Shown here in pieces: positions 7,398 through 40,641 of a stretch of 56,491 nt of DNA. Every line of letters begins with the position of its first letter. Position 1 is the first letter of the stretch. The position numbers and the translations under genes are program-made. This DNA comes from a virus: positions 1-56,491 of the IMG/VR virus record IMGVR_UViG_3300042564_002455; one strand, given 5' to 3'. The notes beneath the pieces are model-generated. The model did not search any database, was not told the origin of the DNA, and worked only from the letters and a program-made list of their open reading frames with translations.

Positions 7398-7434
7398 ATT
7401 ATTAATCACTCATAAACTATTATTAATATTGATA

Positions 7435-7442: not shown

Positions 7443-7458
7443 AAGAAAAAATAAAGAT

Positions 7459-7644: not shown

Positions 7645-7662
7645 ACATAAATAAAAAATAAA

Positions 7663-9084: not shown

Positions 9085-9491
9085 GTTATCTAATTTATAT
9101 AAATGGTTTAGGACCTAATTATAAAGGTGATAATATATACGAATTTATCTTTTCAGATACAATAACCGATATATGGGGAGAGGGATGGGAGTCAAAACCG
9201 TCTAACGGTAATCCATCCGCTCCCGATATAGAATTTATACAGAAAGTCGGAACTCTAAAAAGTGCGGATATTAAGTTATCCCTAATTCAGGATTCTGACT
9301 TTTTTTCTATGATAGATTCTATTGATGATGTAATTGCGTTAGGTTGGGAGTCGGAAGATTCTGATACTAATTTTGAAACTGAAAAAAGATTGGTTTTTAG
9401 ATTTGGTGAGGATGAAAAAACAATAAAAGAAAAACTATATGAAAGAGATATAGTTTTAGAATTTGAAAAAAAAGTAGTTTATGAAAACTGA
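9081..9491 (+). CDS. hypothetical head-module protein
   Basis: 136 residues, acidic, beta-strand-like composition at the N-terminus (MSYLIYINGLGPNYKGDNIY) with several Trp-Glu pairs (WGEGWES, LGWES). No family recognised. It overlaps the preceding gene by four bases (ATGA) and the next by 11 bases, so translation is tightly coupled within the pre-terminase cluster. No signal peptide or membrane segment. A neck or head-completion role is possible from position only. Confidence 0.6.
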   Translation: MSYLIYINGLGPNYKGDNIYEFIFSDTITDIWGEGWESKPSNGNPSAPDIEFIQKVGTLKSADIKLSLIQDSDFFSMIDSIDDVIALGWESEDSDTNFETEKRLVFRFGEDEKTIKEKLYERDIVLEFEKKVVYEN

Positions 9492-10272
9492 TAACGCAGC
9501 ATTTAAATTAATGGATATGGGATTTAAAGCCGAAACATTAGCAAGTTTAACTGAATCACAATTGGTTAAACTTTATAAGAAATTGAATGAGGGTAACGAA
9601 GAAACTAAGGAACAAGTTACACCCGTTACAAAAACATCCCTTAAAATAGGAACTAGCGGAGGTTCTCTACCACCAAACCCAAAAGGTTACAACGTAAGTA
9701 AAACCACAACAGGTGAAGTTATGGCAACTCCAAAGGAAAGTGAAATGAAAGAGGGTAAAAAGAAATCCAAAAAATATAATCCTTGGGCTATTTGTACTTC
9801 TACAGTTGGTAGAGAGGATAAGAAAAAATATGAAAGATGTGTTATGGATATTAAAAAATCTGTAAAAGAAGGAAGAGACCCATCTGAGTTGTTTTTAGAA
9901 AATAAAATCGTATCTTTACTGGAAAGAAATATCCAACCGAAAATTAGTAAAAAAGAATTCTTAGATATGATTAAAGAATCCGAAACTCAAACTCCAGTTA
10001 AACCAAAAGTACCTACGGTAAAACCGGGAGAAACTACCAAAAAACCATCAACACCATATAGTCCAAAACCGGGAGTTAAACCCGCACCTAAGGCTAAGGT
10101 GGAAACTAAAGAACAAAGTAGTCCAACCATCGCACCACCAAAAGAAAAGGAAAAAACAAAAACACCTTCAACACCATATAAACCTAAACCCGGAGTTAAA
10201 CCAGCACCTAAAGCGGGTAAAAAATCGGTACCATCTTGGTTAAGTTGGGGTAAATTAGGAATTAATATTTAA
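9481..10272 (+). CDS. presumed protease-processed basic head protein with Pro/Lys repeats
   Basis: 263 residues. Residues 21-37 (LASLTESQLVKLYKKLNE, including one flanking residue) end L35-N36-E37 before Gly38. They resemble the LTESDL...E tag of the proteins at 2844 and 22.7-23.5 kb but sit further in. Next comes a basic segment with NPWAICTSTVGREDKKKYER, a Cys-containing motif seen in several phage cargo-like proteins. The C-terminal third holds two copies of a Lys/Pro repeat (PSTPYxPKPGVKPAPKA). A packaged, DNA-associated internal protein is the simplest inference. It overlaps the preceding gene by 11 bases. Confidence 0.6.
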   Translation: MKTDNAAFKLMDMGFKAETLASLTESQLVKLYKKLNEGNEETKEQVTPVTKTSLKIGTSGGSLPPNPKGYNVSKTTTGEVMATPKESEMKEGKKKSKKYNPWAICTSTVGREDKKKYERCVMDIKKSVKEGRDPSELFLENKIVSLLERNIQPKISKKEFLDMIKESETQTPVKPKVPTVKPGETTKKPSTPYSPKPGVKPAPKAKVETKEQSSPTIAPPKEKEKTKTPSTPYKPKPGVKPAPKAGKKSVPSWLSWGKLGINI

Positions 10273-10289
10273 GTAAAATTATATTTCAA

Positions 10290-11510
10290 ATGGCAAAGAA
10301 TAGAAAAAATATCAGCGAAGCACCAATAGATTACGAAGGACCTGAAAGAATGGATCCAAGTATTGAGCGTAAAATTACATCTAAAACGACTCCTTACGCT
10401 GAACATCCTGGGTTACCTAAAATGGATAGAGATTTCGTTGAGGTTATTTCATCTGAAAGATTTAAAAATTCAGTTAATAACGTTAGAAGATATTTGGGAG
10501 ATACAACTAAGATACAAGGTGGTCCTCAACAAGTTATGATGTCACTTATGTCATCAGCAATGCAGTTGTTTGGTAAAATTGGCCAGATTGAAAGTCGTAA
10601 CAAAGAGTATCTTGAGAATTTAGCGGTTGAGTTGGTTAAAAAAGAAATGTCAATTCCCGAAGGGGCAATGCAGTTTGACGCAAAACTTATTCACGGTGGT
10701 ATGTCATCGGCTGAAGGTATGAGAGGTGAATCCGAAGAACCTACGGCAGAAGAAGTAAAAGACGCATTTGCATCGGCTGATGAACATCAGGATGAGTTAG
10801 AGGCTTTTATGGATTCTTTTGAGAAGTTTAATCAAGAAAAAGCCAAGCGTAGATTTATTAACGCTTTAATCGGTGGGGCGGCTAAAAAAGGACATTATAT
10901 GTTTGAATTGGTTGCCGATGAACTTGAGAATATTAATCCTGAACTTGTTAGGATTTATGGTATGTCACAAGCGTTGTTAGACCATTTATATTGGATTTAT
11001 CCTGAGCAAATGGTGTCAAGTATGGCAGCATCGGGTGAAGGTCAAGTAGGTCAATCAGAAGTTGATACAGAAACAGACCCACCAACAGTAATCGCAAGAG
11101 GGGCTTCTTTCCCCGTGTTAATTCACGAATTGGTTAAAGGTGTATATGAGATTTTCGGAACTCACGGATTACCTGATGACCCTCGTCAAGCCGAAATGGT
11201 AATTGCGAGTGAAGATACATTACCCGCAGAGATATGGGATTTAAGATTAGGACCTATTTTTTGGGAGAAATTCTTGGCGGCATATCCTGATGAAATTTTT
11301 GAGGAGGACAAACGTCATATTCAACATTATCTGTTTATGAGATTTTCATCTTTATCACCGGAACAATTCTTTAAATTATCTAAATTTATTTTATCTGGTA
11401 ATCCTAAAGGAAAACAGGTATTACAAAGAATGGTTGATGAAATAGTTGAGGAATTAAAGAAACAAGATTTTGATTCTCAATTCGGAGATAGTGATGATGA
11501 TGAATATTAA
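10290..11510 (+). CDS. conserved-type virion protein preceding the terminase
   Basis: 406 residues, largely helical and acidic. Two segments stand out: FPVLIHELVKGVYEIFGTHG (about 270-290), which looks like the start of a zinc-protease helix but lacks the second His of HExxH, and an Asp/Glu-rich C-terminus (SQFGDSDDDEY). It occupies the slot directly before the large terminase, where the small terminase or a neck protein often lies, but at 406 residues it is far longer than typical small terminases. I do not recognise the family. The N-terminal start is supported by the 17-bp gap after the previous stop. Confidence 0.6.
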   Translation: MAKNRKNISEAPIDYEGPERMDPSIERKITSKTTPYAEHPGLPKMDRDFVEVISSERFKNSVNNVRRYLGDTTKIQGGPQQVMMSLMSSAMQLFGKIGQIESRNKEYLENLAVELVKKEMSIPEGAMQFDAKLIHGGMSSAEGMRGESEEPTAEEVKDAFASADEHQDELEAFMDSFEKFNQEKAKRRFINALIGGAAKKGHYMFELVADELENINPELVRIYGMSQALLDHLYWIYPEQMVSSMAASGEGQVGQSEVDTETDPPTVIARGASFPVLIHELVKGVYEIFGTHGLPDDPRQAEMVIASEDTLPAEIWDLRLGPIFWEKFLAAYPDEIFEEDKRHIQHYLFMRFSSLSPEQFFKLSKFILSGNPKGKQVLQRMVDEIVEELKKQDFDSQFGDSDDDEY

Positions 11511-11552: not shown

Positions 11553-13325
11553 ATGCAAAATATAACAAAGGAACAAGTTTTAATAGAATATGTTAAGTGT
11601 ATGAGGGACACCCCTTACGCACTTAAAACGTATTTACAGACGTATGATAATACGGTATCTAGATTTGTTCCTTTGGAGTTATTTCCCGACCAAATATCCC
11701 TACTTGACGATTACGAGAATAACAATGAGAATATTGCCTTAAAGTATAGACAGGCAGGTGTATCCACCGTAACTGCCGCTTGGGCATCTAAGAAAATAGC
11801 CTTCGCAAAAAAACAAACCCCTGAGAAGATTCTAATTATTGCCAATAAATTGGACACCGCCCAAGAGATGGCTAACAAAGTTAGAGGGTTTATTGAACAA
11901 TGGCCGTCTTGGGTTGATATTGGATTTGCGAAAGAAAAGAATTCACAAAGACATTATAAATTAACAAACGGTTGTGAGGTGAAAGCGGTAGCAACATCTA
12001 AGGATGCGTTACGTGGATATACCCCAACAATATTAATATTTGATGAGGCAGCTTACATTGAAGCGGATGCGGACTTTTGGTCAGCCTGTATGGCTTCACT
12101 ATCTACGGGTGGTAAAGTTATTGTAATCTCAACACCAAACGGTTATGACCCCATTTATTATGAAATCTATGATCAGGCTCTAAGAGCAATGAACGATTTC
12201 AAAATATCTGAAATGTTTTGGTATAGAGACCCAAGATATACTAAAGATATGTTCTTGGTTAAAACAGATGATATTATTCACTACCTGTTAAATAAAGAAC
12301 AATACCCATCCGATGCGGTGGTAAAGATAGAACATTACCAACCAAATAATGGTGACCACGAAAAACTAAAACCTTATTTTAAAGATGGATTTAAACCTTG
12401 TTCTTCTTGGTTTGAATCAATGGTTAAGAAGTTAAAATACGATAAGAGAAAAGTTTCTCAGGAATTGGAGTGTAACTTCCTCGGATCTGGTGATAATGTG
12501 TTTGATTCAAAGACACTTACCAAGATTCGTGAGAATACTATTTCTGAACCCACAAATAAGATGATGGCAAACTCCTTATGGATATGGAAAGAACCTGTAA
12601 TTGGTCACAAATACATTATGGGGATTGACGTATCGAGAGGGGATAGTGAGGATTACTCAACATTCCAAATTATAGATTTTGACGAGAGGGAACAAGTTGC
12701 CGAATATGTTGGTAAGATACCACCGGATATTATGGCAGATATTGCGTTTAAATGGGCTAATATGTATTCTTGTTTTGTTGTTATTGATATAACAGGGGGA
12801 ATGGGAGTATCCACCGCTAGGAAAATGCAGGAGTTGGGGTACAGAGATTTATATGTTGATGGTGTTGATTACCAAAACAAATGGAAGTACGACCCTAAAC
12901 AAAACGAAAAAATACCGGGGATTAATTTCAACAGTAAGAGAGTTCAAATAATTGCGGCTTTTGAGGAAGCGGTTAGACATAATTTTATTATTCATAGTAA
13001 TCGTCTATTAAACGAGATGAATACTTTTGTTTATATTAGTGGTAGACCTGACCATCAAAAGGGTCAACACGATGACTTACTTATGTCAATCGCGATGGCA
13101 ATTTATGTTGGTGAATCTTCATTTAGTCAATTAGGAAAGGTTACAGAACATACAAAAGCAATGTTGGAATCTTGGACAGTTAATGTCGATGAGGCTCCGG
13201 CTAAGTCAATCGCATTCAATCCAGGATCACCTAATATACAACAAAGATATCAAGACCAAAGACAACAAGGTCCGTCTAGACAGGATTATATTGATTACGG
13301 ATGGTTATTTGGTAATAGAAGGTGA
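11553..13325 (+). CDS. terL: terminase large subunit (T4 gp17-like)
   Basis: 590 residues, the usual length. The ATPase domain has a degenerate Walker A RQAGVST (66-72), Walker B LIFDE (161-165) and a coupling segment VISTPNG (about 190-196). The RNase H-like nuclease domain carries D358 (MGIDVSRGD), D411 (VVIDITGG) and D506 or D507 in HDDLL. The protein drives DNA translocation into the prohead through the portal and cuts the concatemer. It is followed 63 bp downstream by the portal gene, as in T4-like phages. No recognisable small terminase lies next to it. Confidence 0.95.
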   Translation: MQNITKEQVLIEYVKCMRDTPYALKTYLQTYDNTVSRFVPLELFPDQISLLDDYENNNENIALKYRQAGVSTVTAAWASKKIAFAKKQTPEKILIIANKLDTAQEMANKVRGFIEQWPSWVDIGFAKEKNSQRHYKLTNGCEVKAVATSKDALRGYTPTILIFDEAAYIEADADFWSACMASLSTGGKVIVISTPNGYDPIYYEIYDQALRAMNDFKISEMFWYRDPRYTKDMFLVKTDDIIHYLLNKEQYPSDAVVKIEHYQPNNGDHEKLKPYFKDGFKPCSSWFESMVKKLKYDKRKVSQELECNFLGSGDNVFDSKTLTKIRENTISEPTNKMMANSLWIWKEPVIGHKYIMGIDVSRGDSEDYSTFQIIDFDEREQVAEYVGKIPPDIMADIAFKWANMYSCFVVIDITGGMGVSTARKMQELGYRDLYVDGVDYQNKWKYDPKQNEKIPGINFNSKRVQIIAAFEEAVRHNFIIHSNRLLNEMNTFVYISGRPDHQKGQHDDLLMSIAMAIYVGESSFSQLGKVTEHTKAMLESWTVNVDEAPAKSIAFNPGSPNIQQRYQDQRQQGPSRQDYIDYGWLFGNRR

Positions 13326-13388: not shown

Positions 13389-15236
13389 ATGGAAAATAAC
13401 AATAATCAAAATTTGACCGTTTGGCAAAGATTAACCCAAGCCTTCGGTCCTTACTCATTATTAGGTCAAGATTATCCGACCTACAAATACGATAAGACAG
13501 AATTACTAAAAACAAACAGTAAACAACAATACGAGAAGGAAAAACTCCAAGCTCAACAAACATTCTACTTATCCAATCAATGGACTAAGATTGAGAATAA
13601 TTTATATACCCAAGCAACTTATTACGAACCAACAAGATTAGCATCATTCTATGATTTTGAATCTATGGAGTATACCCCCGAAATATCCGCAGCGTTAGAT
13701 ATCTATGGTGAGGAATCTACCACGGTTGACCAAAATGGTAATATGTTACAGATTTATTCTGAATCACAAAGAATAAAATCAATACTATCGGATTTGTTTA
13801 ATAACAATTTGGATATTAACACAAACTTACCAATGTGGACAAGAAATGCTTGTAAATATGGTGATAATTTTGTTTATCTAAAATTGGACACTGAAAGAGG
13901 TGTTGTTGGTTGTATGCAGTTACCGAACATTGAGATTGAAAGATTGGAGATGGGTATGGCGTCAAAAACTACCAATACCGAACAAGACCCAAGAAATACA
14001 GGATTGAGATTTAAATGGAAAGCCAAGGATATGGAATTCAATTCTTGGGAGATTGCTCACTTTAGATTATTGGGGGATGATAGAAAGTTACCTTACGGTA
14101 CGTCTATGTTGGAAAAGGCGAGAAGAATTTGGAAACAATTATTGTTATCTGAGGATGCGATGTTAATTTACAGAACATCAAGAGCACCTGAAAGAAGAAT
14201 GTTTAAGATATTCGTAGGTAATATGGACGATAAGGATGTGGAACCGTATGTTCAGCGTATGGCAAACAAGTTCAAGCGTTCTCAAGTTGTGGATAATAAC
14301 ACAGGTAATGTTGATATGAGATTTAACCAAATGGCGGTTGACCAAGATTACTTCATACCTGTTAGAGATGCCGCCGCCCCTGACCCAATTACAACACTAC
14401 CCGGAGCAACTAACTTATCGGAAATTGCCGATATTGAATATATCCAAAAGAAATTACTTACCGCATTGAGAGTTCCTAAAGCCTTTTTAGGTTTTGAGGA
14501 GGTTGTTGGTGACGGAAAGAATTTATCTTTACAGGATATTCGTTTTGCGAGAACTATTAATCGTATTCAAAAGAGTATGTTGGCTGAGATGAATAAAATC
14601 GCCATCATACATTTATTTCTTTTGGGTTTTGAAGATGAATTATCTAATTTTACATTATCATTAACTAATCCATCCACACAAGCCGATCTATTAAAGGTTG
14701 ATGTGTGGAAAGAAAAGATTCTATTATATAAAGATGCGGTTGCTGGTATTGAAGGTATTGCTCCTGTGTCACAATCTTGGGCTAAGAAACATATCTTAGG
14801 ATTCTCTGACGAAGAGATTAGATTGGATTTACAACAACAAAGAATTGAGAAAGCGGTTGCCGCTGAACTTACAAATACACCAACAATTATTGTTCACACG
14901 GGCATATTTGATAATATTGATAAATTATACGGACAACAAACAGGAACAACCGCAGCATCTGCTGCAGTTCCACCACCACCTCCTGGCGGAGATATGGGAG
15001 GAATGGAACCACCACCAATGGGTGGAGAGGAAGGTGGAGGTATCGCACCGCCACCTCCAGGACCAACTCCGGGTGGAGAAGCGGGGGTAACACCTGAATC
15101 TTCAAATAGGGATAATGTGAATATATTATTAGAAAATAGTAGTTTGGTGTCTGAAAGCGAATATATAAATTTATCCAGAGCTAAAAATTCTTTAGGTGAA
15201 ATGGAGGATGAATTGAACAGATTGTTAAAAGATTGA
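13389..15236 (+). CDS. 20: portal vertex protein (T4 gp20-like)
   Basis: 615 residues. Conserved gp20-type segments: RAPERRMFKIFVGNMDDKD (about 262-280), the DYFIPVRD ... ITTLPGATNLSEI region, and DIEYIQKKLLTALRVPKAFL. The dodecameric portal forms the DNA entry channel, nucleates the prohead and docks the terminase. Unusual is a Pro/Gly-rich extension (about 520-565, PPPPPGGDMGGMEPPPMGG) followed by a short helical tail, which typical gp20 proteins lack. The order terminase, portal, core protein, protease, scaffold, capsid is that of T4. Confidence 0.93.
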   Translation: MENNNNQNLTVWQRLTQAFGPYSLLGQDYPTYKYDKTELLKTNSKQQYEKEKLQAQQTFYLSNQWTKIENNLYTQATYYEPTRLASFYDFESMEYTPEISAALDIYGEESTTVDQNGNMLQIYSESQRIKSILSDLFNNNLDINTNLPMWTRNACKYGDNFVYLKLDTERGVVGCMQLPNIEIERLEMGMASKTTNTEQDPRNTGLRFKWKAKDMEFNSWEIAHFRLLGDDRKLPYGTSMLEKARRIWKQLLLSEDAMLIYRTSRAPERRMFKIFVGNMDDKDVEPYVQRMANKFKRSQVVDNNTGNVDMRFNQMAVDQDYFIPVRDAAAPDPITTLPGATNLSEIADIEYIQKKLLTALRVPKAFLGFEEVVGDGKNLSLQDIRFARTINRIQKSMLAEMNKIAIIHLFLLGFEDELSNFTLSLTNPSTQADLLKVDVWKEKILLYKDAVAGIEGIAPVSQSWAKKHILGFSDEEIRLDLQQQRIEKAVAAELTNTPTIIVHTGIFDNIDKLYGQQTGTTAASAAVPPPPPGGDMGGMEPPPMGGEEGGGIAPPPPGPTPGGEAGVTPESSNRDNVNILLENSSLVSESEYINLSRAKNSLGEMEDELNRLLKD

Positions 15237-19205: not shown

Positions 19206-21044
19206 ATGGGAGCATTATTAGAATCAGGTCTTGTTGGTAACATCGGTCTTAAGCACCTTAAGGTTATCAAAGAAGATACAATTAACAAATGGGACAAATT
19301 AGGGTTCCTAGAAGGTCTTAAAGGCCACCTAAAAGAAAACGTTGCACAACTTTATGAAAACCAAGCATCTTTCTTGATTAACGAAGCATCTTCAGAATCT
19401 TCTAACGGAGCATTTGAAACAGTTGTTTTTCCAATCGTAAGACGTGTTTTCTCTAAATTGTTGGCTAACGAAATCGTATCAGTACAAGCAATGAACTTAC
19501 CAATTGGTAAATTATTCTACTTCGTACCTAAAATTCAAGGTTATAACACTGCGGACGCTAATGGAAATCCACATTTCGGTCCTGTTGGAGCACCAGATGG
19601 TCCAACACTAGCAGAATCACAAGCGGGTTATGGTGCTAACGATAAAAACCTTTATGATAGATTTTATGAAGGAAATGAACCAACTTTGGATCCTGCTGGA
19701 CTTTTTGATTACTCAAAAGGTGCTTATACGGCAATTACAACAACAAATGTTGTAACAGTTGCTTGGTCAAATGGTGTAATGATACCAACGGCTTACTCTT
19801 TAACAGGTGGTACGGTAGCGGCAACAGGTGCTGACGGAGGTCCTGTTTACAGAAAAGCAATTATCGTTATGTCAGGATTCTCAACCGCAGGTGAAGGTAA
19901 ATTGATTGGACCTGACGGTATGGAAATTGATAGCGAGGCTTTCCTTTCTGATTTAAAGGTTAAAGCAGTATCTACCGGAGCATTCTCAGGAATGGGATCT
20001 GGTGACTTACTATTTAGAGTTGTTACTCAAAAATACGGTAAAGGTATTGTACAATACGGACAACAAGCTACGACAACTTGGTCATCAACAGGAAATGGTG
20101 GATCTTATTACGATATATGTGATTCAGTAGGTCTTATTTATTTAGAAGTTGACTTACAAGTTCCTTGTGCTCTTGGTACGGCTTCTTTAGATGGTTACTC
20201 AGGTTTAACTTTAAATATCTCTGGTGATGCATCAAATGGAACTCAATTTACTTGTTCTTTCAGAAGATATAAGTCATTGGAATTCGAAGACCAAATTGGT
20301 GAGGTTTCTTTCGACCTTCAATCCGTTACTGTATCTGTTACTGAAAGAAAACTAAGAGCACAATGGTCTCCTGAGTTAGCTCAAGACGTTGCGGCTTTCC
20401 ATAACATCGACGCTGAGGCTGAATTGACGGCATTGTTGTCAGAACAAGTAGCTGCTGAGATTGACCGTGAAATTTTACGTGACTTACGTAAAGGAGCGGC
20501 TTGGAATCTACGTTGGGATTACAACGGATGGAAGAGAGGAACATCATCTAATCCATTAACTCAATACACTCAAAAAGATTGGAATCAGACTTTGATTACC
20601 GCAATTAACCAATTGTCGGCTCAAATTCACAAGTCAACTCTTCGTGGTGGTGCTAATTGGATCGTAGTTTCTTCTGAAGTTTCTGCAATTTTTGATGACT
20701 TGGAATACTTCCACGTATCAAATGCTTCACCTGAGCAAGATCAGTACAACATGGGTATTGAAAGAGTAGGTACATTAGCTGGTCGTTACCAAGTATTCCG
20801 TGACCCTTACTTCCCTGCTAACCAAGTGTTAGTTGGTCACAAAGGTACATCGTTACTTGACACAGGTTACATCTACGCACCGTACGTACCTCTACAATTA
20901 ACACCAACTATGTACAATCCGTTCAATTTTACACCTATCAAAGGTATTATGACACGTTACGCTAAGAAAATGGTTAATAACCGTTTCTACGGACGTATCA
21001 CAGTTGATGGTGTTAGAACGTTTGATTTGAGAGAATTGAGATAA
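19206..21044 (+). CDS. 23: major capsid protein (T4 gp23-like)
   Basis: 612 residues, somewhat longer than T4 gp23. The propeptide ends FLINE (I58-N59-E60) before Ala61, the counterpart of the T4 site FLTE before Ala, so the mature protein should begin at residue 61. The HK97-fold C-terminal domain includes RDLRKGAAWNLRWDYNGW, the segment NWIVVSSEVSAIFDDLEYF and a terminal GIMTRYAKKMVNNRFYGRI typical of gp23. A Gly/Thr-rich insertion (about 160-330) probably forms the surface domain. It is expressed with the scaffold and followed by a terminator. Confidence 0.95.
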   Translation: MGALLESGLVGNIGLKHLKVIKEDTINKWDKLGFLEGLKGHLKENVAQLYENQASFLINEASSESSNGAFETVVFPIVRRVFSKLLANEIVSVQAMNLPIGKLFYFVPKIQGYNTADANGNPHFGPVGAPDGPTLAESQAGYGANDKNLYDRFYEGNEPTLDPAGLFDYSKGAYTAITTTNVVTVAWSNGVMIPTAYSLTGGTVAATGADGGPVYRKAIIVMSGFSTAGEGKLIGPDGMEIDSEAFLSDLKVKAVSTGAFSGMGSGDLLFRVVTQKYGKGIVQYGQQATTTWSSTGNGGSYYDICDSVGLIYLEVDLQVPCALGTASLDGYSGLTLNISGDASNGTQFTCSFRRYKSLEFEDQIGEVSFDLQSVTVSVTERKLRAQWSPELAQDVAAFHNIDAEAELTALLSEQVAAEIDREILRDLRKGAAWNLRWDYNGWKRGTSSNPLTQYTQKDWNQTLITAINQLSAQIHKSTLRGGANWIVVSSEVSAIFDDLEYFHVSNASPEQDQYNMGIERVGTLAGRYQVFRDPYFPANQVLVGHKGTSLLDTGYIYAPYVPLQLTPTMYNPFNFTPIKGIMTRYAKKMVNNRFYGRITVDGVRTFDLRELR

Positions 21045-22662: not shown

Positions 22663-22692
22663 CAAAGATAATGACTTTTTTTGGATTAACAA
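22663..22692 (-). promoter_or_regulatory. Bacteroidota primary-sigma promoter
   Basis: On the minus strand, TTG (22692-22690), 19 bases, TATCTTTG (22670-22663), matching TTG-N17-23-TAnnTTTG. The ATG at 22643 follows 19 nt downstream of the -7 element. Confidence 0.6.
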
Positions 22693-23174
22693 TAAGGTGG
22701 GGAACATCTTTTTTTACCGTCTAAACCTTTCATTTTACCCTGACACACTTGAACCGCGAACCCATTTCCGTATGCTGAGGGGTAAACCTTAAATTTTGAT
22801 TTAGCCGCCGCCTTACCCCTCGCACATAATTTAGTTCCGGCCTTTTTTCTACCCTCCTCAATTACATCATCAAAAGAACTATTATCCATATGTTGTTCAT
22901 CACCACCTTTGATTTCATTCATCATAAAATCAAAAACTTGATCCATATTGTTTTTGGATTCGGCAATATGGTCTTGTGCCCAATCGTGACCATTATCCAA
23001 TATTTCTTCTATCATCCCCCTATCTTGTTCTAATAGAAATTCACATTGTCTTTTCATCTGTTCTAAGTTTGAAAAGAACATATATCTATCACCACGTTCT
23101 TCGTGTGATTCGTTTAATACTCGTTTTATCAAATGAGTAATATCTGCTTCGGTTAATCTAATTACTTTTTTCAT
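22686..23174 (-). CDS. presumed packaged head protein with N-terminal targeting tag
   Basis: 162 residues. The tag MKKVIRLTEADITHLIKRVL plus NE ends L20-N21-E22 before Ser23, the same length and cut position as the proteins at 2844 and 23177. The middle is an acidic helical region. The C-terminal 55 residues (GTKLCARGKAAAKSKFKVYP, then SAYGNGFAVQVCQGKMKG and a CxPPYC-like end) form a Cys/Lys domain with a YPSAY core, found in many phage internal-type proteins. It lies 2 bp after the next tagged gene and was probably transcribed with it. Confidence 0.68.
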   Translation of the reverse strand: MKKVIRLTEADITHLIKRVLNESHEERGDRYMFFSNLEQMKRQCEFLLEQDRGMIEEILDNGHDWAQDHIAESKNNMDQVFDFMMNEIKGGDEQHMDNSSFDDVIEEGRKKAGTKLCARGKAAAKSKFKVYPSAYGNGFAVQVCQGKMKGLDGKKRCSPPYC

Positions 23175-23176
23175 TT

Positions 23177-23545
23177 TTATACTTTTTTTAATTTTAAATC
23201 AGGCTCAATAAAACTACCACTATCAATTACGCTTGGTGATCCCGTATCCACGAAATTTATAACTTTTTTAATTATATCGGAATCAACATCCTTAGACATT
23301 TTACCACCTGTTATTGTATAACCATTACCGGTAGGTGTTATGTTTTTAATATTCATATCACCTAATTTAGTGTATAATCTAATTTTTTGTAATTTATTCT
23401 GACTATTAGCGATTGATATTGTTCCATCAGGGTTAATGGTAAAGTTCCTTCCTAATAAAGTATTTGTGGAGGTGTTAGATTCTTCTATGACTCTTTGAAC
23501 AATCATTCTTAAATCTGATTCGGTTAATCTAATTACTTTTTTCAT
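23177..23545 (-). CDS. presumed packaged head protein with N-terminal targeting tag
   Basis: 122 residues. The tag MKKVIRLTESDLRMIVQRVI plus EE ends I20-E21-E22 before Ser23. The body is beta-rich and not acidic (NFTINPDGTISIANSQNKLQ, GNGYTITGGKMSKD), quite unlike the bodies of the other two tagged proteins. The shared part is thus the tag alone, as expected of a sorting signal rather than a protein family. The terminator at 23571-23598 isolates it from the upstream secreted-protein gene. No TATTTATA motif is evident immediately upstream. Confidence 0.65.
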   Translation of the reverse strand: MKKVIRLTESDLRMIVQRVIEESNTSTNTLLGRNFTINPDGTISIANSQNKLQKIRLYTKLGDMNIKNITPTGNGYTITGGKMSKDVDSDIIKKVINFVDTGSPSVIDSGSFIEPDLKLKKV

Positions 23546-23570: not shown

Positions 23571-23598
23571 AAAAACCCCTCTTTTGGAGGGGGGTTTT
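23571..23598 (-). terminator. rho-independent terminator
   Basis: Stem CCCCTC / GAGGGG with loop TTTT, extended by an A-run and T-run across a small bulge. Read on the minus strand it follows the type IX-tagged gene and ends in a T-rich tract. Confidence 0.8.
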
Positions 23599-23603
23599 AT
23601 TAT

Positions 23604-24881
23604 TTATTTTTTGAACATTTTATGTAGTGTCGTATTTTGTTTGGATATTACCTTTATATAGTATATACCATTTGGTAAATCCTTGGTTTCTATTTTACCT
23701 GTAACGCCTTTTATTGATTTTACTATCTTACCTACATAGTCATAAATTTCCACATTAGATAATTCTGTCTTATTAATTAAAACCTCTTCGTTAAAAGGAT
23801 TGGGTGATAATGAAACATCAATTTCGTCATTAGACGTGATAACATCATCAAACTCAACTCTACTTTGATTATTACAATAATGTAGTGACATTACACCATC
23901 AACATCATATCCATCAGCACTTGATGAGAATTGAGTGAATGGACTTCTATCACTTATTCTGATGTATTGGAAGCATTTAACATATTCCATCTCAATATAC
24001 GAATCCATACATACCTCACCTAATAAAGTCCAATAATCACCGTCCATAGACACTTCAATTAACGCTTTTTCAGGGTAATTAGAACATAATGGATTACCAT
24101 AACTTGTTTCAGTAATTTTGATATCATCACCTTCTTCATTAAAGACAACGAAATCAAACTTTAAAACTAATTGACCACCGAAACCTAATGATACGAAATT
24201 AATTACTTCAGTTCCTTGTGGGATACCTAAAGCGTTTAATGGGTTAGTTCTTGCCGTGGTAATCGGAGTTCCATTTTTTCTTAGTCCTGGTGTGTAGGAC
24301 ATTACTTTCTGAGCAGATCCACCAATCAATGTTGTTGGTGTTGGATTGTTTTCTTTCTGAATTCCCTCAACACCATCAATATCATATCCGTCACAAACTC
24401 CCAACGATTCAAAATTACCATGAGGGGAAACATCAATAATTTTAATGTATTGAACCCAATTCATTTCACCCAAATCAAATTGTTCGTCTTGACAAGCTTC
24501 ACCAACATAATACCAATTACAATTGTCTTGGGATACAAAAACCTGAACTTTCTCAGGGTATCTTTTACAATTAGGATTGTTAAATGTTGTTTCATACAAG
24601 ATAATGTCATTACCTTCAATGTTCTTTACCGGACTTGAGAATTTAAGGACAATTTCTCCACCGAAACCTAAAGAAACGTAATTAGCGTTTTCCTCACTTG
24701 TTGGTGTGTCGGAAGATTGAGCCTGACCGATGGCTCGTAATGGGTTAGAGCGTAAGGAACTAACGACTTGACCATCGTTGTTTAGTCCTTGATTGAATGA
24801 TACAATCTCATCAACCCATATGGATTGAGCAATAGAGATTTGACACAAAATTCCCGCGAAAAGTGTTAGGAGTGTTTTCAT
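23604..24881 (-). CDS. secreted protein with type IX secretion sorting domain
   Basis: 425 residues. A signal peptide MKTLLTLFAGILCQISIAQS (cleavage near A-Q) precedes two homologous beta-rich domains (about 20-180 and 190-345). Each carries FVSLGFGGxxVLKF-like and YVSLGFGG motifs, N-P-x-C...YPE, a V-S-x-D segment and a closing DGYDxDGV. The last 70 residues (SLSPNPFNEEVLINK, then VEIYDYVGKIV and DLPNGIYYIKV) match the Bacteroidota Por/type IX C-terminal sorting domain. The protein should cross the inner membrane by Sec and the outer membrane by the host type IX system. It is transcribed alone, with a TATTTATT motif and its own terminator. Surface binding or blocking of receptors is inference. 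Confidence 0.9.
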   Translation of the reverse strand: MKTLLTLFAGILCQISIAQSIWVDEIVSFNQGLNNDGQVVSSLRSNPLRAIGQAQSSDTPTSEENANYVSLGFGGEIVLKFSSPVKNIEGNDIILYETTFNNPNCKRYPEKVQVFVSQDNCNWYYVGEACQDEQFDLGEMNWVQYIKIIDVSPHGNFESLGVCDGYDIDGVEGIQKENNPTPTTLIGGSAQKVMSYTPGLRKNGTPITTARTNPLNALGIPQGTEVINFVSLGFGGQLVLKFDFVVFNEEGDDIKITETSYGNPLCSNYPEKALIEVSMDGDYWTLLGEVCMDSYIEMEYVKCFQYIRISDRSPFTQFSSSADGYDVDGVMSLHYCNNQSRVEFDDVITSNDEIDVSLSPNPFNEEVLINKTELSNVEIYDYVGKIVKSIKGVTGKIETKDLPNGIYYIKVISKQNTTLHKMFKK

Positions 24882-24895: not shown

Positions 24896-24903
24896 AATAA
24901 ATA
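24896..24903 (-). promoter_or_regulatory. candidate late promoter motif TATTTATT
   Basis: On the minus strand TATTAATATTTATTAAA, 14 nt before the ATG of the type IX-tagged gene. Confidence 0.5.
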
Positions 24904-24965
24904 TTAATAGTTAATTTTTGATTAATCAAATGTAAGATATGAATTAATATTAGTAACCTTTAAAT

Positions 24966-26456
24966 TTATTTTTTATTTACAATCTGAAACTTGATTTGTT
25001 TTTTGTATGTGTTGATTTCTCCCGTTACATCTAATTTTAAATCAATGTAATATTCATTCGGTATTTTATCTCTTGTGTCAAAGATAAAGTAATATTCATT
25101 TGGTGCTTTATTTATTTGTGTCCAATCCTGAACTTGAACTTCAGTTTGACCCTCCTTAACATATATTCGGTAATATGCCTTTATTTTTTCTAGTGGTTGG
25201 TTTGATGTGTATTGTTTTTTAATGACAACACCAACTTTACGTAAATCCGTATTTAATATTTTCTCATCTTGTTTTATCCCATAATAATCAAAACCATATA
25301 AAGCAGGTTCCTTAGTTGTTGTTCCTATCGTTAACGCTTTTGAATATGGTTGTATGACCAACTCATTTTCAATGTCGGGTAATTGAATCCCATTTAAAAA
25401 TAAATCACCCCACACATCAGTAAAGGTACAAGGTGACTTATACCCCAATAATGCGGGTATTGTTACTTCGTATATTCCTTTAGTTTTTCTACATGTTGTA
25501 ATAGCGGATAAAGATGGTATTAGGTCACCATTATTATCTAATAGTGATACAATTGGGTTGGAATCCAAATTAACTGGGTTACCATCTTCATATAGATACA
25601 AATATAATTTATTTGGTCTTCCTAAACTAAACAAATCCCTATCATCGGTAATTAAATCATTATAATTTGTTAATAGGTATGGTTCATAAAATGTTTGAGT
25701 ATGACGAGTAAAGAAACCAACGGAAAAATACTGAGTTATCCCCGTAAATAATTCTATATTTGGTTTATAGGCAATACCCCATCCAGTAACACCTGTTATT
25801 GCACCATTTAAAATACCATTAATTTCATCGGTCATATCAAAAGATATATTCTCATTTCCAAATTCAAAATGTTGTTCCGCAATAATAGTAAGACCTGAAT
25901 AATTTACACCTGACCCCGTTATTGAGTTTGTGTTATCATACATACCTTCTGTTGACCAAGGTAATGTTGTTTGACGATAAAACCAATTGGATGATTCTAA
26001 TGAGAAGTTTTTTCTTGTAAAAACAGATTCCGTGTCATTTAACCCTATACCAAAATCGTATTCTCTACCAACACCTTCGTCCCAAGGTTGGGGATTTCCA
26101 GTTGTACCTGAAGAGAGTGGGATTCTAAATAATATTAAATCAAAAGATGACGCTCTTTTTATTTCACCTGAAAACCTAGTGGCGTTTAATAATCCCGGAT
26201 CAAATGATGCGGTATTGGTCATTATTAATGTATGAGTCATAGAACTAGTACATCCTGTTTGAATAACTCCGTTACTAATCTTCTCAGTTAATAAATCTAA
26301 ATTTAAGTCAAATATGAATCTACTATATATTGTACTTGGGTTTTCGGTATTAATGTAGCCAAAGAAAAGTTCTGTTATAGGCGCCTGACCCGTATTACTA
26401 TATGTGTTATATAGTATAGTGTTGTTTCTACTGAAATATGAGTTATTTATTGACAT
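24966..26456 (-). CDS. tail or fibre-type virion protein
   Basis: 496 residues, beta-rich, Asn/Thr/Tyr/Phe-rich, with few Lys clusters. Segments such as YSRFIFDLNLDLLTEK and FSVGFFTRHTQTFYEPYLLT look like jelly-roll strands of surface-fibre or carbohydrate-binding modules, and the C-terminal 110 residues resemble an immunoglobulin-like beta domain (KAYYRIYVKEGQTEVQVQDW, then FIFDTRDKIPNEYYIDL). No named family recognised. Position next to the baseplate-type genes and a well-placed TATTTATT motif support a late virion role. Confidence 0.6.
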   Translation of the reverse strand: MSINNSYFSRNNTILYNTYSNTGQAPITELFFGYINTENPSTIYSRFIFDLNLDLLTEKISNGVIQTGCTSSMTHTLIMTNTASFDPGLLNATRFSGEIKRASSFDLILFRIPLSSGTTGNPQPWDEGVGREYDFGIGLNDTESVFTRKNFSLESSNWFYRQTTLPWSTEGMYDNTNSITGSGVNYSGLTIIAEQHFEFGNENISFDMTDEINGILNGAITGVTGWGIAYKPNIELFTGITQYFSVGFFTRHTQTFYEPYLLTNYNDLITDDRDLFSLGRPNKLYLYLYEDGNPVNLDSNPIVSLLDNNGDLIPSLSAITTCRKTKGIYEVTIPALLGYKSPCTFTDVWGDLFLNGIQLPDIENELVIQPYSKALTIGTTTKEPALYGFDYYGIKQDEKILNTDLRKVGVVIKKQYTSNQPLEKIKAYYRIYVKEGQTEVQVQDWTQINKAPNEYYFIFDTRDKIPNEYYIDLKLDVTGEINTYKKQIKFQIVNKK

Positions 26457-34962: not shown

Positions 34963-35907
34963 TTATTTTTGAAAAACGTTATGGTAGTTAGATTTTATAC
35001 GTATCATAGGGAATGACTTAATTAATTCCTTAACACCCTCTTCTAATGATATAGTGGTGTTAAATCCTAAACTATTAATTTTTTCGTAACTCACAACATA
35101 ATTTCTTTTATCTGGATCTCCATCAACATCCGCATAGTTAAAATATGTTTTAGGTAATAATTTTTTAATAATTTCACAAACATTTTTTTTAGAGTAATTC
35201 ATACTATCATGTCCTATATTATATACTTCACCTGACATTACATCCATATTCTCTATGGCAAAACAAAAAACTCTAGCAATGTCTTTAACGTGAATAAATG
35301 TTCTCATAAAATGAGATTCATATATTACCGCATACCCCTCAGTGTGTGATCGGTATGTTAAATCATTAACAAGTAAATCCAATCTAAGTCTAGGTGATAC
35401 CCCAAACGCAGTTGCAAATCTAAATGCCGTGCTATTTTCTCTATTCATTACTAATTTTTCAGCTTCTGTTTTTGTTACCCCGTATGCGGTTAGCGGATTA
35501 AGTGGAGTGTTTTCAGTGCAAATACCATCAACTTCACCATAGTTAGATCCGGTGGATCCATATAAAAGGTATTGGTCATCGTCCATCGATTCTATTAGTA
35601 TTCTAGTTCCATCTGTATTGACCGAATATGATTCCTCGTCCCCCATTTTTCTACAAATAGGAAACCCAACCAACGCCGCTAAATGTATTACAACATCATG
35701 ACCCTTTAAACTTTTTGTTAAAAGTTCTTTATTCCTTATATCGCCATGTATGAAATTAAAATTATCATTACCTACGTATGGTAAAAGTTTATCTCCATTA
35801 TCAAAAATTAATGAATCATAAACTGTTACGTTATAGTTTTTTTCTAATAATAAAGGGATAAGCGATGTTCCAATATACCCAGCACCACCTGTTACAAATA
35901 TTTTCAT
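34963..35907 (-). CDS. NAD-dependent sugar epimerase/dehydratase (SDR)
   Basis: 314 residues. Extended SDR with the Rossmann motif TGGAGYIG near the N-terminus and the catalytic Y-x3-K in TAYGVTKTEAEK, with an upstream Ser/Thr (YGSTGSNYGE). It would act on a nucleotide-sugar, for example as an epimerase or dehydratase; substrate not assignable from motifs. It overlaps the next SDR gene by four bases, so the two enzymes are likely used in one pathway supplying the glycosyltransferases downstream in the same operon. Confidence 0.85.
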   Translation of the reverse strand: MKIFVTGGAGYIGTSLIPLLLEKNYNVTVYDSLIFDNGDKLLPYVGNDNFNFIHGDIRNKELLTKSLKGHDVVIHLAALVGFPICRKMGDEESYSVNTDGTRILIESMDDDQYLLYGSTGSNYGEVDGICTENTPLNPLTAYGVTKTEAEKLVMNRENSTAFRFATAFGVSPRLRLDLLVNDLTYRSHTEGYAVIYESHFMRTFIHVKDIARVFCFAIENMDVMSGEVYNIGHDSMNYSKKNVCEIIKKLLPKTYFNYADVDGDPDKRNYVVSYEKINSLGFNTTISLEEGVKELIKSFPMIRIKSNYHNVFQK

Positions 35908-36833
35908 TTTAAAAATTTTTTATAGTACGTTATTGTGTTTTTTATTCCATCCTCATAATTTGTAAAATTAAAATTAGGGAAATATTTGTTAAATGTTTTT
36001 TTACTTAAAATTTTTATTGGTGCTCCATCTTGTTTTGTTAAATCATTAATTATACTACAATCATAATTTAACGCTTTTTTAATGATTTTAACGGATTCAT
36101 TGATAGATATTCCAAATTCTTGGCCCACATTTATTGGATTGGGTAAATCGTATATTTCTTCATCTATAATCATTTTTATTAATTTAGATACGTCCGGCAT
36201 ATATATCCACTCCCTTATTGGGGTACCTGACCCCCATACACTAAATTCTTGCTTTTCATTTTTAATAGATTCAATCATTCTCATTATTATACCATTCATA
36301 GCGTGAGTTCTTTCTTGGTCAATGTAGTCATTAGGTCCGTACGCATTTGGTATAATAAGATTTATTGTTTTTATGTTATGTTGTTTTTTATAACATTCGG
36401 ATATTACAAATCCTAATTTTTTGGGAAATCCGTAAGACTCAATGCTTTCATGTAATCTACCATCCCACCACATTTCCTCATTTTGTATATCAATTACACC
36501 AGGATATGAACAATTTGAAATTGGGTTTATTATTATAATTTTATTATTGAATTTGGCAACACATTTATATAAGTTCAAATACATTTGAGAATTGTCATAA
36601 ATTATATCACAACTATTATTTGACACGTAATTTATACTCCCGACGTGCGCCGCTGCATGTATTATAATGTCAGGATTAATTTTTTCTAAAATATCCATAA
36701 CATTTTTCTCATTTTGTAAATCCACACCATCTTGTCTACTAATGTAATGAACTTCGTATTGAGAATTCTCAAAAATATTTTTTAAATTTTTCCCTAAAAA
36801 TCCATGCCCCCCAAAAACTAATATTTTTTTCAT
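35904..36833 (-). CDS. GDP-L-fucose synthase-like SDR
   Basis: 309 residues. Rossmann motif GGHGFLGKNL and a catalytic Y-x3-K in ESYGFPKKLG. The segment CSYPG and the following MWWDGRLHESIESYGFPKK resemble GDP-L-fucose synthase (GMER/WcaG), which turns GDP-4-keto-6-deoxymannose into GDP-L-fucose. This fits the two fucosyltransferase-like genes (GT11 and GT10) in the same locus. No GDP-mannose 4,6-dehydratase lies in the window, so the precursor would come from the host or from another part of the phage genome. Confidence 0.75.
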   Translation of the reverse strand: MKKILVFGGHGFLGKNLKNIFENSQYEVHYISRQDGVDLQNEKNVMDILEKINPDIIIHAAAHVGSINYVSNNSCDIIYDNSQMYLNLYKCVAKFNNKIIIINPISNCSYPGVIDIQNEEMWWDGRLHESIESYGFPKKLGFVISECYKKQHNIKTINLIIPNAYGPNDYIDQERTHAMNGIIMRMIESIKNEKQEFSVWGSGTPIREWIYMPDVSKLIKMIIDEEIYDLPNPINVGQEFGISINESVKIIKKALNYDCSIINDLTKQDGAPIKILSKKTFNKYFPNFNFTNYEDGIKNTITYYKKFLK

Positions 36834-36868
36834 ATATTAATAATATACGTGACAAATTGATTGTAAAG

Positions 36869-37672
36869 TCATAAACAAATCCATGTTTTTGGAAATAAGT
36901 CGTCCAAAACCACACCTCTATACCCAGGCCCAAACCATTCTGATTTAGGTGCTATTGTTATAGTCTCATTATTTAAATTTAAATAAGAAGACCACCAAGA
37001 AAATGTTGAGTTACCAATAATATTATAGTTACATAGAGACATTAATATAAACGATTTCTCCATTGTCTCATCCACATATATTACGTTATCAATCTCACCA
37101 TCAAAAATTTGTTTTGATAACGGAACATTATCTGAAATTATAAATTTCACATCATTTTCAGGTATATAAGATAGTGATTTTAAATAAAATTCTTTAGATA
37201 CGTTTTTATGGTAGTGTTGAGTACTTTCATTGTCTCTATCTCCACCAAATCTACAATGTAATGATGTATATTTTTTATCTCTTTCTATACCATATTTGTT
37301 AGTAACATCAAGTAATAAATTATTTTTAAATTTAAAAAAATCTTTAATGTTAAAATCGTTAAAATACTTTTCGGATTGAAAATACCCTTCATAAAGAGTG
37401 TTATCAATTAAAGGCACTTCTCTATATGTGAAATCATTACTTAAATCGGTATGGATATAGTGATTAGAACACGATACGTCTTCTATTAACCCCGGAACGG
37501 CATAAAAAATATTTTCAAATTCAAAACCATGTCCGTTAAAATTTCCAGCAGAACCTCTAATTGGTATACCATTTGTTTTAAAATCAACTCCTAACCTCTT
37601 TGACACTCCAATTATATTTGCTATTTGAAATAAATTGTTCCCAAAACCTCCTATTAGTTTAGCAATAACCAT
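36869..37672 (-). CDS. GT11 alpha-1,2-fucosyltransferase
   Basis: 267 residues. The N-terminal GGFGNNLFQIANIIGVSKRL is the GT11 signature (usually GLGNQLFQ), LHCRFGGDRDN corresponds to the donor-site H-x-R-R-G-D region, and NSTFSWWSSYLN is the conserved family C-terminal motif. The enzyme should add L-fucose alpha-1,2 to a galactose-type acceptor. It overlaps the following SDR gene by 14 bases. With the GDP-fucose synthase-like gene 35 bp away, donor supply and transfer are encoded together. Confidence 0.85.
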   Translation of the reverse strand: MVIAKLIGGFGNNLFQIANIIGVSKRLGVDFKTNGIPIRGSAGNFNGHGFEFENIFYAVPGLIEDVSCSNHYIHTDLSNDFTYREVPLIDNTLYEGYFQSEKYFNDFNIKDFFKFKNNLLLDVTNKYGIERDKKYTSLHCRFGGDRDNESTQHYHKNVSKEFYLKSLSYIPENDVKFIISDNVPLSKQIFDGEIDNVIYVDETMEKSFILMSLCNYNIIGNSTFSWWSSYLNLNNETITIAPKSEWFGPGYRGVVLDDLFPKTWICL

Positions 37673-38348
37673 CTATAAATTCTTTTAACTCTTTCATTAC
37701 TTTATCTGATGAATACAAATATCCATTTTTTGGGATTTTATTTTGTATATATGAATTTTCATCATTATCAATTATTTTGAAATTTTTACTGAATAGTGAA
37801 ATTAATTGTTCGTTAGTTATTGGTTCAGGAAAAAACTCAACAACATTTTCACCAGTTTCTAAAAAATTATCAATATCAAATTTTATATTATTAACATTAT
37901 ACCATTGGTATTTATCCTTAATATTAATTTCGGATAAAATTGAATTATTTAACATATCAAACAATAAATTTTTTTTTAACCCGTCTCCATAAACCGCCGG
38001 CAACCTAACAATTATAAGTTTATTACCAAAAATTTTGTTTAAATCATCTTCAAATTTTTTACGGTTAATTCCATAAGGTTCGTTATCATATATTGAAATT
38101 GTTGAGATTAATATAAATTTATCACAATTAACATTACGTACAACCTCTAATAAATTGTTAATATTTTTAGAGTCTTCATTTGCATTTTTATTTGCCCACC
38201 ATTTAACTGACGATAATCCTGAACAATAAATTGTGTCATAAGAATTATTTAGTATGTCTTTAATGTTATCACGATTAAAACAATCACCAACAACACTTTT
38301 TTTTAAAATACTCCCAACAAATCCTGTATGACCAATAATTGCGTTCAT
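37659..38348 (-). CDS. short SDR sugar-modifying enzyme, atypical active site
   Basis: 229 residues. The N-terminal GHTGFVGS dinucleotide-binding motif (G6-x-x-G9-x-x-G12) and the later LPAVYGDGLKKN are typical of NAD-dependent epimerase relatives. The catalytic pair is Y92-G-I-N-R96: the invariant Lys of Y-x3-K is Arg here, with K97 and K98 beside it. The protein is also about 80 residues shorter than most extended SDRs. It may be a reductase with altered chemistry or a non-catalytic member. It overlaps neighbours by 14 and 4 bases. Confidence 0.7.
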   Translation of the reverse strand: MNAIIGHTGFVGSILKKSVVGDCFNRDNIKDILNNSYDTIYCSGLSSVKWWANKNANEDSKNINNLLEVVRNVNCDKFILISTISIYDNEPYGINRKKFEDDLNKIFGNKLIIVRLPAVYGDGLKKNLLFDMLNNSILSEINIKDKYQWYNVNNIKFDIDNFLETGENVVEFFPEPITNEQLISLFSKNFKIIDNDENSYIQNKIPKNGYLYSSDKVMKELKEFIDGYC

Positions 38349-39922
38349 TTTTGTTTTTTTTCAAAAAGGTAATCATCAATTAATACATAATCTAATTCCG
38401 TTTCCTCTAAAACATGAATAGCATCACTGATTGAAGTTAAAATTGGTTTACCTTTAATATTAAACGAAGTATTCAATATTACGGGTAATTCCCCTCTATT
38501 TTTTAATTCGGTTAAAATATCATAAAATAATTGGTGTCCATCTTTATTAACAGTTTGTAATCTTCCTGTACCATCATTGTGAGTTATTGACGGCAAAGAC
38601 TCTCTAAATTCTTCTTTAATTTTTGGGGCGTAACTCATAAACTCCGACTCAAATACATCATCGAAAAATATTTCAGAATCTTCAACACGACAAACAGGTG
38701 CGAATGGTCTAAACCATTCTCTAAATTTAACTTTCAAGTTTAATATGTCTTTCATATCTCGGATTGTAGGGTCACAAATAATACTTCTATTCCCTAAAGC
38801 TCTCGGTCCTATTTCAGAACCACCTCTGATCACACCTATAATTTTACCAGATTTTATTAAATCGGTAATTATTGGTACATTTACTTTTTTTGCGTTATAA
38901 TGAATAACATATTCATTTAATTTATAATAATCCGTAATATCTATACCATCATATACAAAATTTTTAACTCTTTGTTTGGTTTTATATAAAAATTGCCCTA
39001 ATGATAAACCGCAATCATTAGGTACAGGTGACATATATAAATTCTTACCTATTTTAGACAATTCAACTTTAAATTTTTGATTGAATAAAACATTTAATCC
39101 ACACCCACCAACAATTATAAAATTATCTGACATATGTAAATAGGGTTTGATTAAATCCATCATAACCTCTTCAAAAACATATTGTGATGTTGCGGCCAAA
39201 TCGTAACTATTTTGTCCATTTAACGAGTTATAATTTAAATTTAAATTTGTTACTGAACTTAAAAAATTTAAATTAGATTGGTATTGACTTGTGTTAGAAC
39301 CCGTATAATACGTTTTGAACGCATTAGTCCAATTATGATTTACATTACCGTACGCACACAATCCCATTACTTTACCCGCATATGCCATAGAATCAATAAT
39401 ATCTCCACCGCCTGCGCTAATTTCAGAGATTGATGAACCTATTCTACCATACGCAACCCCTAAATTATAATCTTTACTTGAGATTAATTTAATTTCATTG
39501 TCTTTAGCGTGAAAAATATTTGTATATGATATTACACCATAATCATGCCCTCCTCCGTCAGCCGAAATTATAATCGCATCATTAAAGTCTGATAAAAAAT
39601 AACCTGAAGATGCGTGAGACATATGATGACCCATCTGTTCAAATTTAGCATTTGGGAAGTGTTTTGATAATAATGTGAAATCTTCCCCAAATAAATTATT
39701 ATATACGATCAATTCAATATCATTTTTAATGTATGATTTAATGTGTTTTAAAAAATTTTCTCTATTTTCGTCATCATTTTCATAATTACCGTACTGTTTG
39801 GTAAATGCTGCGTATCTGACTTTGACAAATCTTTCATATTCAAAAATTCTTAGTTTACCAAATTCATCAATAAAAGTTGCCGATGAATCATGCGCTCCGT
39901 ATATACTTAATATATTATTCAT
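38345..39922 (-). CDS. NodU/CmcH-family O-carbamoyltransferase
   Basis: 525 residues. The N-terminal TsaD-like domain includes HHMSHASSGYFLSDFNDAII and then SADGGGHDYG. The C-terminal domain has GGSEIGPRALGNRSIICDPT and FREWFRPFAPV, both strong signatures of the family. It transfers a carbamoyl group from carbamoyl phosphate via carbamoyl-AMP to a sugar hydroxyl, as in Nod factors and antibiotics. In this locus it would carbamoylate the glycan being built. It is coupled to the short SDR gene by a four-base overlap. Confidence 0.92.
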   Translation of the reverse strand: MNNILSIYGAHDSSATFIDEFGKLRIFEYERFVKVRYAAFTKQYGNYENDDENRENFLKHIKSYIKNDIELIVYNNLFGEDFTLLSKHFPNAKFEQMGHHMSHASSGYFLSDFNDAIIISADGGGHDYGVISYTNIFHAKDNEIKLISSKDYNLGVAYGRIGSSISEISAGGGDIIDSMAYAGKVMGLCAYGNVNHNWTNAFKTYYTGSNTSQYQSNLNFLSSVTNLNLNYNSLNGQNSYDLAATSQYVFEEVMMDLIKPYLHMSDNFIIVGGCGLNVLFNQKFKVELSKIGKNLYMSPVPNDCGLSLGQFLYKTKQRVKNFVYDGIDITDYYKLNEYVIHYNAKKVNVPIITDLIKSGKIIGVIRGGSEIGPRALGNRSIICDPTIRDMKDILNLKVKFREWFRPFAPVCRVEDSEIFFDDVFESEFMSYAPKIKEEFRESLPSITHNDGTGRLQTVNKDGHQLFYDILTELKNRGELPVILNTSFNIKGKPILTSISDAIHVLEETELDYVLIDDYLFEKKQK

Positions 39923-39924
39923 TT

Positions 39925-40641
39925 TTAATTTTTATACATGTAAAGTTTATTAACTCCAGAATTTTTTAAAATAACATAACCCATATCAGTTAAAAAATTA
40001 TGAACAGACTCAGGAGAGGAATTATTTTCAAATAAATTTTCCTGAACCTCAACATAAATTAATTTTGGTCTTATTTCACCAAAACCTTTAAAGATTTCTA
40101 GTTCAGACCCTTCAGCGTCAATATGAACAAGAGTTATTTCATTTATATTTTCAGATGAATAAAAATCACTAATCTTAACACTATTAATTTTTACGGCTGA
40201 TGTTTGTTCTATGTGAGGAAAATATTTTTTATAATTTTCAGTAATTTTATACATACTTCCTTGACCTCCGTGTTCGCCAGGATTGTGAAACGATCCGGCG
40301 TCTTTTATTAAACATTTAGCAGGATAAAAATCAATTATTCCACTTTCACTGAATACTGCTTTATTAAATGTTTTAATTCCACAATTTTCGGCAAATTTAT
40401 GCGTTTTTCGATACCTTTCCAAATCTGCCTCAAAAGAGTATACCTCTAAGTCAGGAAATGCTATTTTGTATTTTATGGAATCACCAAAATCGTACGATCC
40501 AACATCTATAATAACTTTAGGGGTAATACCTAACTCTGTGAACCAATTTAAATTAAAATTACTCGAATAGAATTTATTATCATTATAAATAAATTCTATA
40601 TCTTTTTCAAAGGGTGATAAATCAACATTACTATAGTTCAT
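39925..40641 (-). CDS. FkbM-family methyltransferase
   Basis: 238 residues. SAM-binding segment VIIDVGSYDFGDS and acidic VYSFEADLE, then the FkbM core VHIDAEGSELEIFKGF and the closing KLIYVEVQENL. These enzymes O-methylate sugars or other hydroxyls in glycan and antibiotic pathways. Neighbours are the carbamoyltransferase (2-base gap) and the sugar aminotransferase (1-base overlap). Together they indicate a heavily decorated, non-reducing-end-capped sugar (inference). Confidence 0.88.
   Translation of the reverse strand: MNYSNVDLSPFEKDIEFIYNDNKFYSSNFNLNWFTELGITPKVIIDVGSYDFGDSIKYKIAFPDLEVYSFEADLERYRKTHKFAENCGIKTFNKAVFSESGIIDFYPAKCLIKDAGSFHNPGEHGGQGSMYKITENYKKYFPHIEQTSAVKINSVKISDFYSSENINEITLVHIDAEGSELEIFKGFGEIRPKLIYVEVQENLFENNSSPESVHNFLTDMGYVILKNSGVNKLYMYKN

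Follow-up and report, generated by a model that had tools for sequence, protein, structure and literature searches.

We identified, in a 56-kb virus record with T4-like head genes (IMG/VR record IMGVR_UViG_3300042564_002455, positions 1 to 56,491; hereafter the window, meaning the whole 56,491-nucleotide stretch that was analyzed), a gene that we regard with good confidence as a moron carried by a large tailed, T4-like (Gp23) phage of freshwater Bacteroidota bearing the type IX secretion system (T9SS), and as encoding a T9SS type A cargo protein captured from bacteria. The protein comprises, in order, a signal peptide, two repeat domains (D1 and D2), a linker and a T9SS type A sorting domain, and its display on the surface of the infected cell is predicted to be very likely. 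A sequence-only reading of the same DNA had proposed a phage-encoded protein made for the host type IX system, and this is supported by profile matches, structure, conservation among phages, and T9SS-bearing bacterial relatives of the same architecture. Cases of T9SS cargo encoded by phages had been published in 2019-2020, a precedent not known to the sequence-only reading, and the window gene is a further example; what seems to be added here is the pairing of discoidin-like domains in a protein of a T4-like phage, the bacterial origin of its gene, and a moron cassette with a natural deletion, as well as the recurrence of T9SS cargo in one phage group, in one case with a sortase homologue. The gene and the parts of its product are as follows.

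23604..24881, (-) strand: T9SS-type cargo gene, ATG start, 425 aa; homologues at the same position in viral contigs L003 and L084
24825..24881, (-) strand: signal peptide MKTLLTLFAGILCQISIAQ, residues 1-19; hydropathy and conservation in three phages
24348..24812, (-) strand: repeat domain D1 (discoidin/CBM32-like), residues 24-178; repeat alignment and fold search
23874..24320, (-) strand: repeat domain D2 (discoidin/CBM32-like), residues 188-336; repeat alignment and fold search
23607..23825, (-) strand: T9SS type A C-terminal sorting domain, residues 353-425; PF18962, TIGR04183, model fits 8glk_D

Domain architecture and predicted secretion

Both signals needed for the T9SS route, a signal peptide and a sorting domain, are encoded in the phage protein. 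The hydrophobic core of MKTLLTLFAGILCQISIAQ is the most hydrophobic 12-mer of the whole protein in all three phage copies (window, L003, and L084), n-, h-, and c-regions are discernible, and a glutamine stands at the likely cleavage site, in agreement with the signal peptide originally proposed. At the other end, the sorting domain was judged against the curated cut-offs of two profiles and passed both, with 41.5 bits for PF18962 (cut-off 27; E=1.6e-10) and 37.6 bits for TIGR04183 (cut-off 23), each match reaching the last residue; the Por/type IX assignment made earlier from a C-terminal motif is thereby confirmed. An AlphaFold model built from 60 aligned homologues of phage and bacterial origin reached a mean predicted local distance difference test (pLDDT) score of 90, compared with 45 for a poor earlier model from two sequences only. 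The modelled C-terminal domain fits the NucA cargo domain of a solved T9SS complex (8glk_D) with a template modelling (TM) score of 0.81 at 1.9 A, and the same structure was also matched by sequence profile (E=1.6e-4).

The two central domains are copies of one another, as had been claimed: D1 and D2 of the window protein share 43% identity, and 41 columns are invariant over four repeat copies. Paired cysteines are conserved in each repeat across phage and bacterial homologues, which fits the expectation for an exported protein. The structural prediction that had been suggested for the duplicated domain places discoidin/F5-8 type C and CBM32 folds among the best matches of the repeats. Since the two-domain model as a whole gives low TM-scores and the match to PF00754 (F5/8 type C) is below the Pfam cut-off (17.2 versus 28.2 bits), we label the repeats as discoidin-like only, with carbohydrate binding a putative function. 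No PHROGs family was found for the 425-aa protein.

T9SS substrates are exported by Sec and recognized through their sorting domain; they then pass the translocon, are cleaved and, in many cases, become anchored to lipopolysaccharide (PMC8545088). By this route, Sec would carry the cargo protein over the inner membrane during infection, and the host T9SS translocon would recognize its C-terminal domain; the sorting domain would then be cut off, with the protein either staying on or being released from the outer surface. There, the two discoidin-like domains could bind surface glycans or other cell-surface material.

Insertion site, regulatory cassette and origin

The gene lies between two core phage genes (A and B), together with a second, independently inserted optional gene (C).

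24966..26456, (-) strand: core phage gene A (496 aa), bounding the insertion site upstream; present in >400 viral contigs
23177..23545, (-) strand: optional gene C (122 aa), independent insertion between cassette and B; found in L084 and L105 but not in L003
22686..23174, (-) strand: core phage gene B (162 aa), bounding the insertion site downstream; directly adjoins A in the nearest relatives

The A-B gap is 0 in the nearest relatives (A 90-91% identical) versus 1.8 kb in the window, so that the cargo gene, as expected of a moron, is an addition that separates two genes lying side by side in relatives. It occupies three of 74 distinct A-B junctions; two further junctions, from one lineage (L105), retain the upstream element, the last codons and the terminator, with the gene body gone. 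In the full-length L084 copy this deletion is bounded at each end by an 11-bp repeat, AAGTAAAA[C/T]AA; a single copy of the repeat is left in the deleted form, which shows that the gene was deleted between the repeats in this lineage. Given the empty A-B junctions and the deletion scar in relatives, the sequences indicate that the cargo gene is optional, and has been both gained and lost. In six other relatives (L130, L140, L144, L151, L212, and L221) the A-B site holds other proteins, tandemly repeated and up to 939 aa long, with a shared C-terminus (...VVQLNAxxLGGxNGLNS); these are probably virion-associated. The products of genes B and C (window 22686-23545), and of others in the phage group, have in common a MKKVIRLTESDL-like motif at the N-terminus, reminiscent of a shared targeting or maturation tag.

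The cargo gene also carries conserved signals of its own.

24925..24938 (to within a base or two), (-) strand: conserved upstream element TATCTTACATTTGA containing TACATTTG; same 13-14 nt in L003, L084, and the L105 deletion scar
24896..24903, (-) strand: recurrent phage upstream motif TATTTATT, ending 14 nt before the ATG; positional enrichment in the window
23576..23592, (-) strand: intrinsic terminator CCCCTCCAAAAGAGGGG followed by TTTTTT, after the stop; conserved in L003, L084, and L105

The Bacteroidota -7 promoter pattern is TAnnTTTG, which TACATTTG fits, and TATCTTACATTTGA is conserved in four phages (including the L105 scar); we therefore regard it as a promoter-like element, with its role in transcription predicted. 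TATTTAT, common to all copies, follows TATCTTACATTTGA about 20 nt 5' of the start. TATTTATT lies within 60 nt upstream of seven of the 57 window genes, always at -13 to -22, compared with 0.6 expected under uniform placement and 0.86 in shuffled sequences (maximum of five in 1000 shuffles). The gene may therefore have two promoters, one of host type and one of phage type. The terminator is clear, and conserved in both full-length homologues. Thus, the phage motif and terminator noted in the sequence-only reading both hold, and the integration into phage regulation deduced from them is supported by the conserved upstream elements and terminator, and by the precise absence or deletion of the gene in relatives. 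A generic sigma-70 scan was uninformative (fewer sites than in shuffles), and an Rfam search gave no match.

The L003 and L084 homologues are 59% identical and share the same gene order, and the signal peptide, both repeats and the sorting domain are retained in all three phage copies. The nonsynonymous rate (dN) is 0.32 over the whole gene and 0.37 for the sorting domain alone, against a synonymous rate (dS) near saturation (about 1.3-1.5 for the whole gene, omega about 0.2), which indicates purifying selection on all parts of the protein. Neither a nucleotide search nor tblastn of the whole protein found a match in phage records; a search with the consensus sorting domain recovered Flavobacterium phage immuto and several uncultured very large phages, with weak scores.

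The repeat domain is encoded at 72 bacterial loci, most of them in Bacteroidota and many in freshwater metagenome-assembled genomes, with a best identity of 58% (to D2). At many of these loci the order is also two repeats followed by the C-terminal sorting domain (D-D-CTD), with up to 58% identity per domain and often as tandem paralogues. The T9SS translocon protein SprA was found in nine of nine tested genomes with D-D-CTD loci versus none of 14 control genomes. Because the three phage copies form one clade among the bacterial lineages (support 100/100), a straightforward interpretation is that the gene of a host surface protein was captured once from bacteria. More distant D-D-CTD proteins in two very large virus contigs (L087 and L089) fall elsewhere in the tree, among bacterial ones. 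In the 464-kb contig L087, genes for exported proteins adjoin the D-D-CTD gene (5839-10999), including one for a metalloprotease-like lipoprotein and one for a 439-aa protein that may be a second with a sorting domain, its match being below cut-off.

Elsewhere in the window, the head genes identified were the following.

11553-13325: large terminase
13389-15236: portal, left of the cargo gene
19206-21044: Gp23 major capsid protein, left of the cargo gene

The nearest cultured phages by Gp23, among them immuto, show about 40% identity. The cargo gene had been placed between head and tail genes: the head part stands, with portal and Gp23 to the left, and the tail part is likely, the genes to the right having no convincing family match. 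A cluster of sugar-nucleotide and glycosyltransferase genes occupies 34963-46482 (epimerases/GDP-mannose dehydratase-like, fucosyltransferase families 10 and 11, aminotransferase, NodU-like carbamoyltransferase, and FkbM methyltransferase); it seems that the phage could make or add a fucose-type glycan.

Possible roles and alternative explanations

The likeliest benefit to the phage would be that the surface of the infected cell is altered or covered, with less attachment of further phages or of its own progeny. As a specific role we favor, tentatively and at less than even odds, receptor occlusion or superinfection exclusion, in which the protein would bind a glycan or adhesin used by phages and hinder later adsorption. 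Infection by flavobacterial phages needs T9SS-dependent surface proteins and gliding genes: exposure of Flavobacterium columnare to phage selects for mutations in T9SS/gliding genes that confer phage resistance (PMC9233685), and T9SS adhesins have been proposed as phage receptors (PMC13288928). The glycan-binding-like domains and the moron cassette, with its possible host-type promoter 53 nt upstream, are consistent with this role, which has also been proposed for Cryophage cargo; however, a virulent T4-like phage would gain little from exclusion if expression were only late.

Only slightly less probable is that the protein, on the host surface or in the medium, instead serves a purpose other than exclusion, such as cell aggregation, particle attachment, polysaccharide binding, or keeping progeny off debris. 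The relatives in freshwater Bacteroidota are surface proteins encoded in tandem, and other phage cargo of the group has PKD, lamin-tail, and cohesin domains, both of which would suit such a function; the lack of a catalytic domain is less favorable to it. Far less probable is a virion protein (decoration or fiber) in which the sorting domain is reused only as a structural module. The cargo gene adjoins structural genes, and the A-B site of other relatives holds the virion-associated-looking proteins described above, but their shared C-terminus is not in the cargo protein, which conserves a signal peptide and cysteine pairs and has bacterial relatives of identical architecture; moreover, Sec export would take the protein away from virion assembly. 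That the gene is contaminating bacterial DNA, or is in passage with no function in the phage, is very improbable despite the bacterial origin of the domains. Contamination, which the sequence-only reading had also set aside, was rejected because the insertion site and flanks are common to three separate phages; an independent contig (L002) of identical sequence, purifying selection and the conserved cassette signals also argue against it.

Several points weigh against a moron-encoded cargo protein displayed on the host surface. Export and surface location of the protein are predicted, and the signal peptide was called from hydropathy and conservation. A T9SS in the host of this phage is deduced from the relatives of the gene and from the nearest isolate, immuto, with about 40% identity in Gp23. 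The discoidin-like assignment derives from a whole-model fold search and a sub-threshold Pfam match. TATTTATT also precedes other genes and may point to late expression, a poorer fit to superinfection exclusion. Finally, most relatives do not have the cargo gene, and it is therefore dispensable.

Type IX cargo in other phages

Of the phage systems already described, Cryophage has three T9SS cargo genes, for which hijacking of the host system was proposed (Bellas et al., 2020, PMC7468147). It likewise infects Bacteroidetes and has genes with T9SS type A sorting domains that vary between phage relatives, although its cargo consists of an endoglucanase, a GH39 protein and a PA14 protein in a 76-kb phage, whereas the window encodes a double discoidin-like protein in a T4-like phage for which the insertion site, cassette, and deletion can be seen. 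In crAss-like cluster 2 phages, T9SS sorting-domain proteins are also encoded near head genes (Viruses 2019, PMC6949934), but these have BACON repeats, unrelated to the domains of the window protein. Three UniProt proteins of uncultured Caudovirales (A0A6J5L910, A0A6J5M064, and A0A6J5M2J1) are named "Secretion system C-terminal sorting domain," but have other N-terminal parts and low fold overlap with the window protein. The freshwater Bacteroidota D-D-CTD proteins (L011-L040) have the same domain order and a terminal sorting domain, but often have longer N-terminal parts and are encoded as tandem chromosomal paralogues.

In the isolated T4-like Flavobacterium phage immuto, gene 15 (QQO91933.1; L010:3692-4423) encodes a signal peptide, a cohesin domain and a sorting domain (PF18962, 36.7 bits), although it is annotated only as cohesin domain-containing; it differs from the window gene in having no discoidin-like repeats and in its place in the genome. 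It adjoins a C-type lectin gene, and a metagenomic phage (L247) has a similar gene in a similar neighborhood. When 50 viral records were searched by profile, nine had the sorting domain above cut-off; several of the nine belong to this phage group, where the other sorting-domain proteins are encoded at other genome sites and have other N-terminal parts (lamin-tail-like, PKD, and some without a named domain). One 128.5-kb contig, IMGVR_UViG_3300036770_003984 (G020), encodes three sorting-domain proteins, including an 873-aa Peptidase C25 with signal peptide and sorting domain (L256:4314-6935, about 28.3-30.9 kb) that matches the NCBIfam model "putative type IX secretion system sortase PorU2" at 550 bits (cut-off 450). 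Its gene is flanked on both sides by phage core genes, by B on one and by the next core gene on the other. Neither a related-locus search nor a profile search of 51 viral records brought up another viral copy of this PorU2 homologue, and a search of the literature library for PorU2 found no paper.

It is conceivable, though we think it unlikely on present evidence, that this T4-like phage group of aquatic Bacteroidota uses the T9SS as a standing route to rebuild the surface of the infected cell, with cargo cassettes swapped at several sites, and that at least one member, IMGVR_UViG_3300036770_003984, also brings a PorU2-type sortase homologue that could change the anchoring step. The window gene offers a tractable case of a virus sending a protein through the host T9SS, as there are natural phages with the gene, without it, or with it deleted, and phages that differ in this way make effects on the host surface, adsorption, and exclusion testable. 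These findings suggest that the T9SS, which in flavobacteria is linked to phage receptors, is not merely needed by phages but is also used by them.
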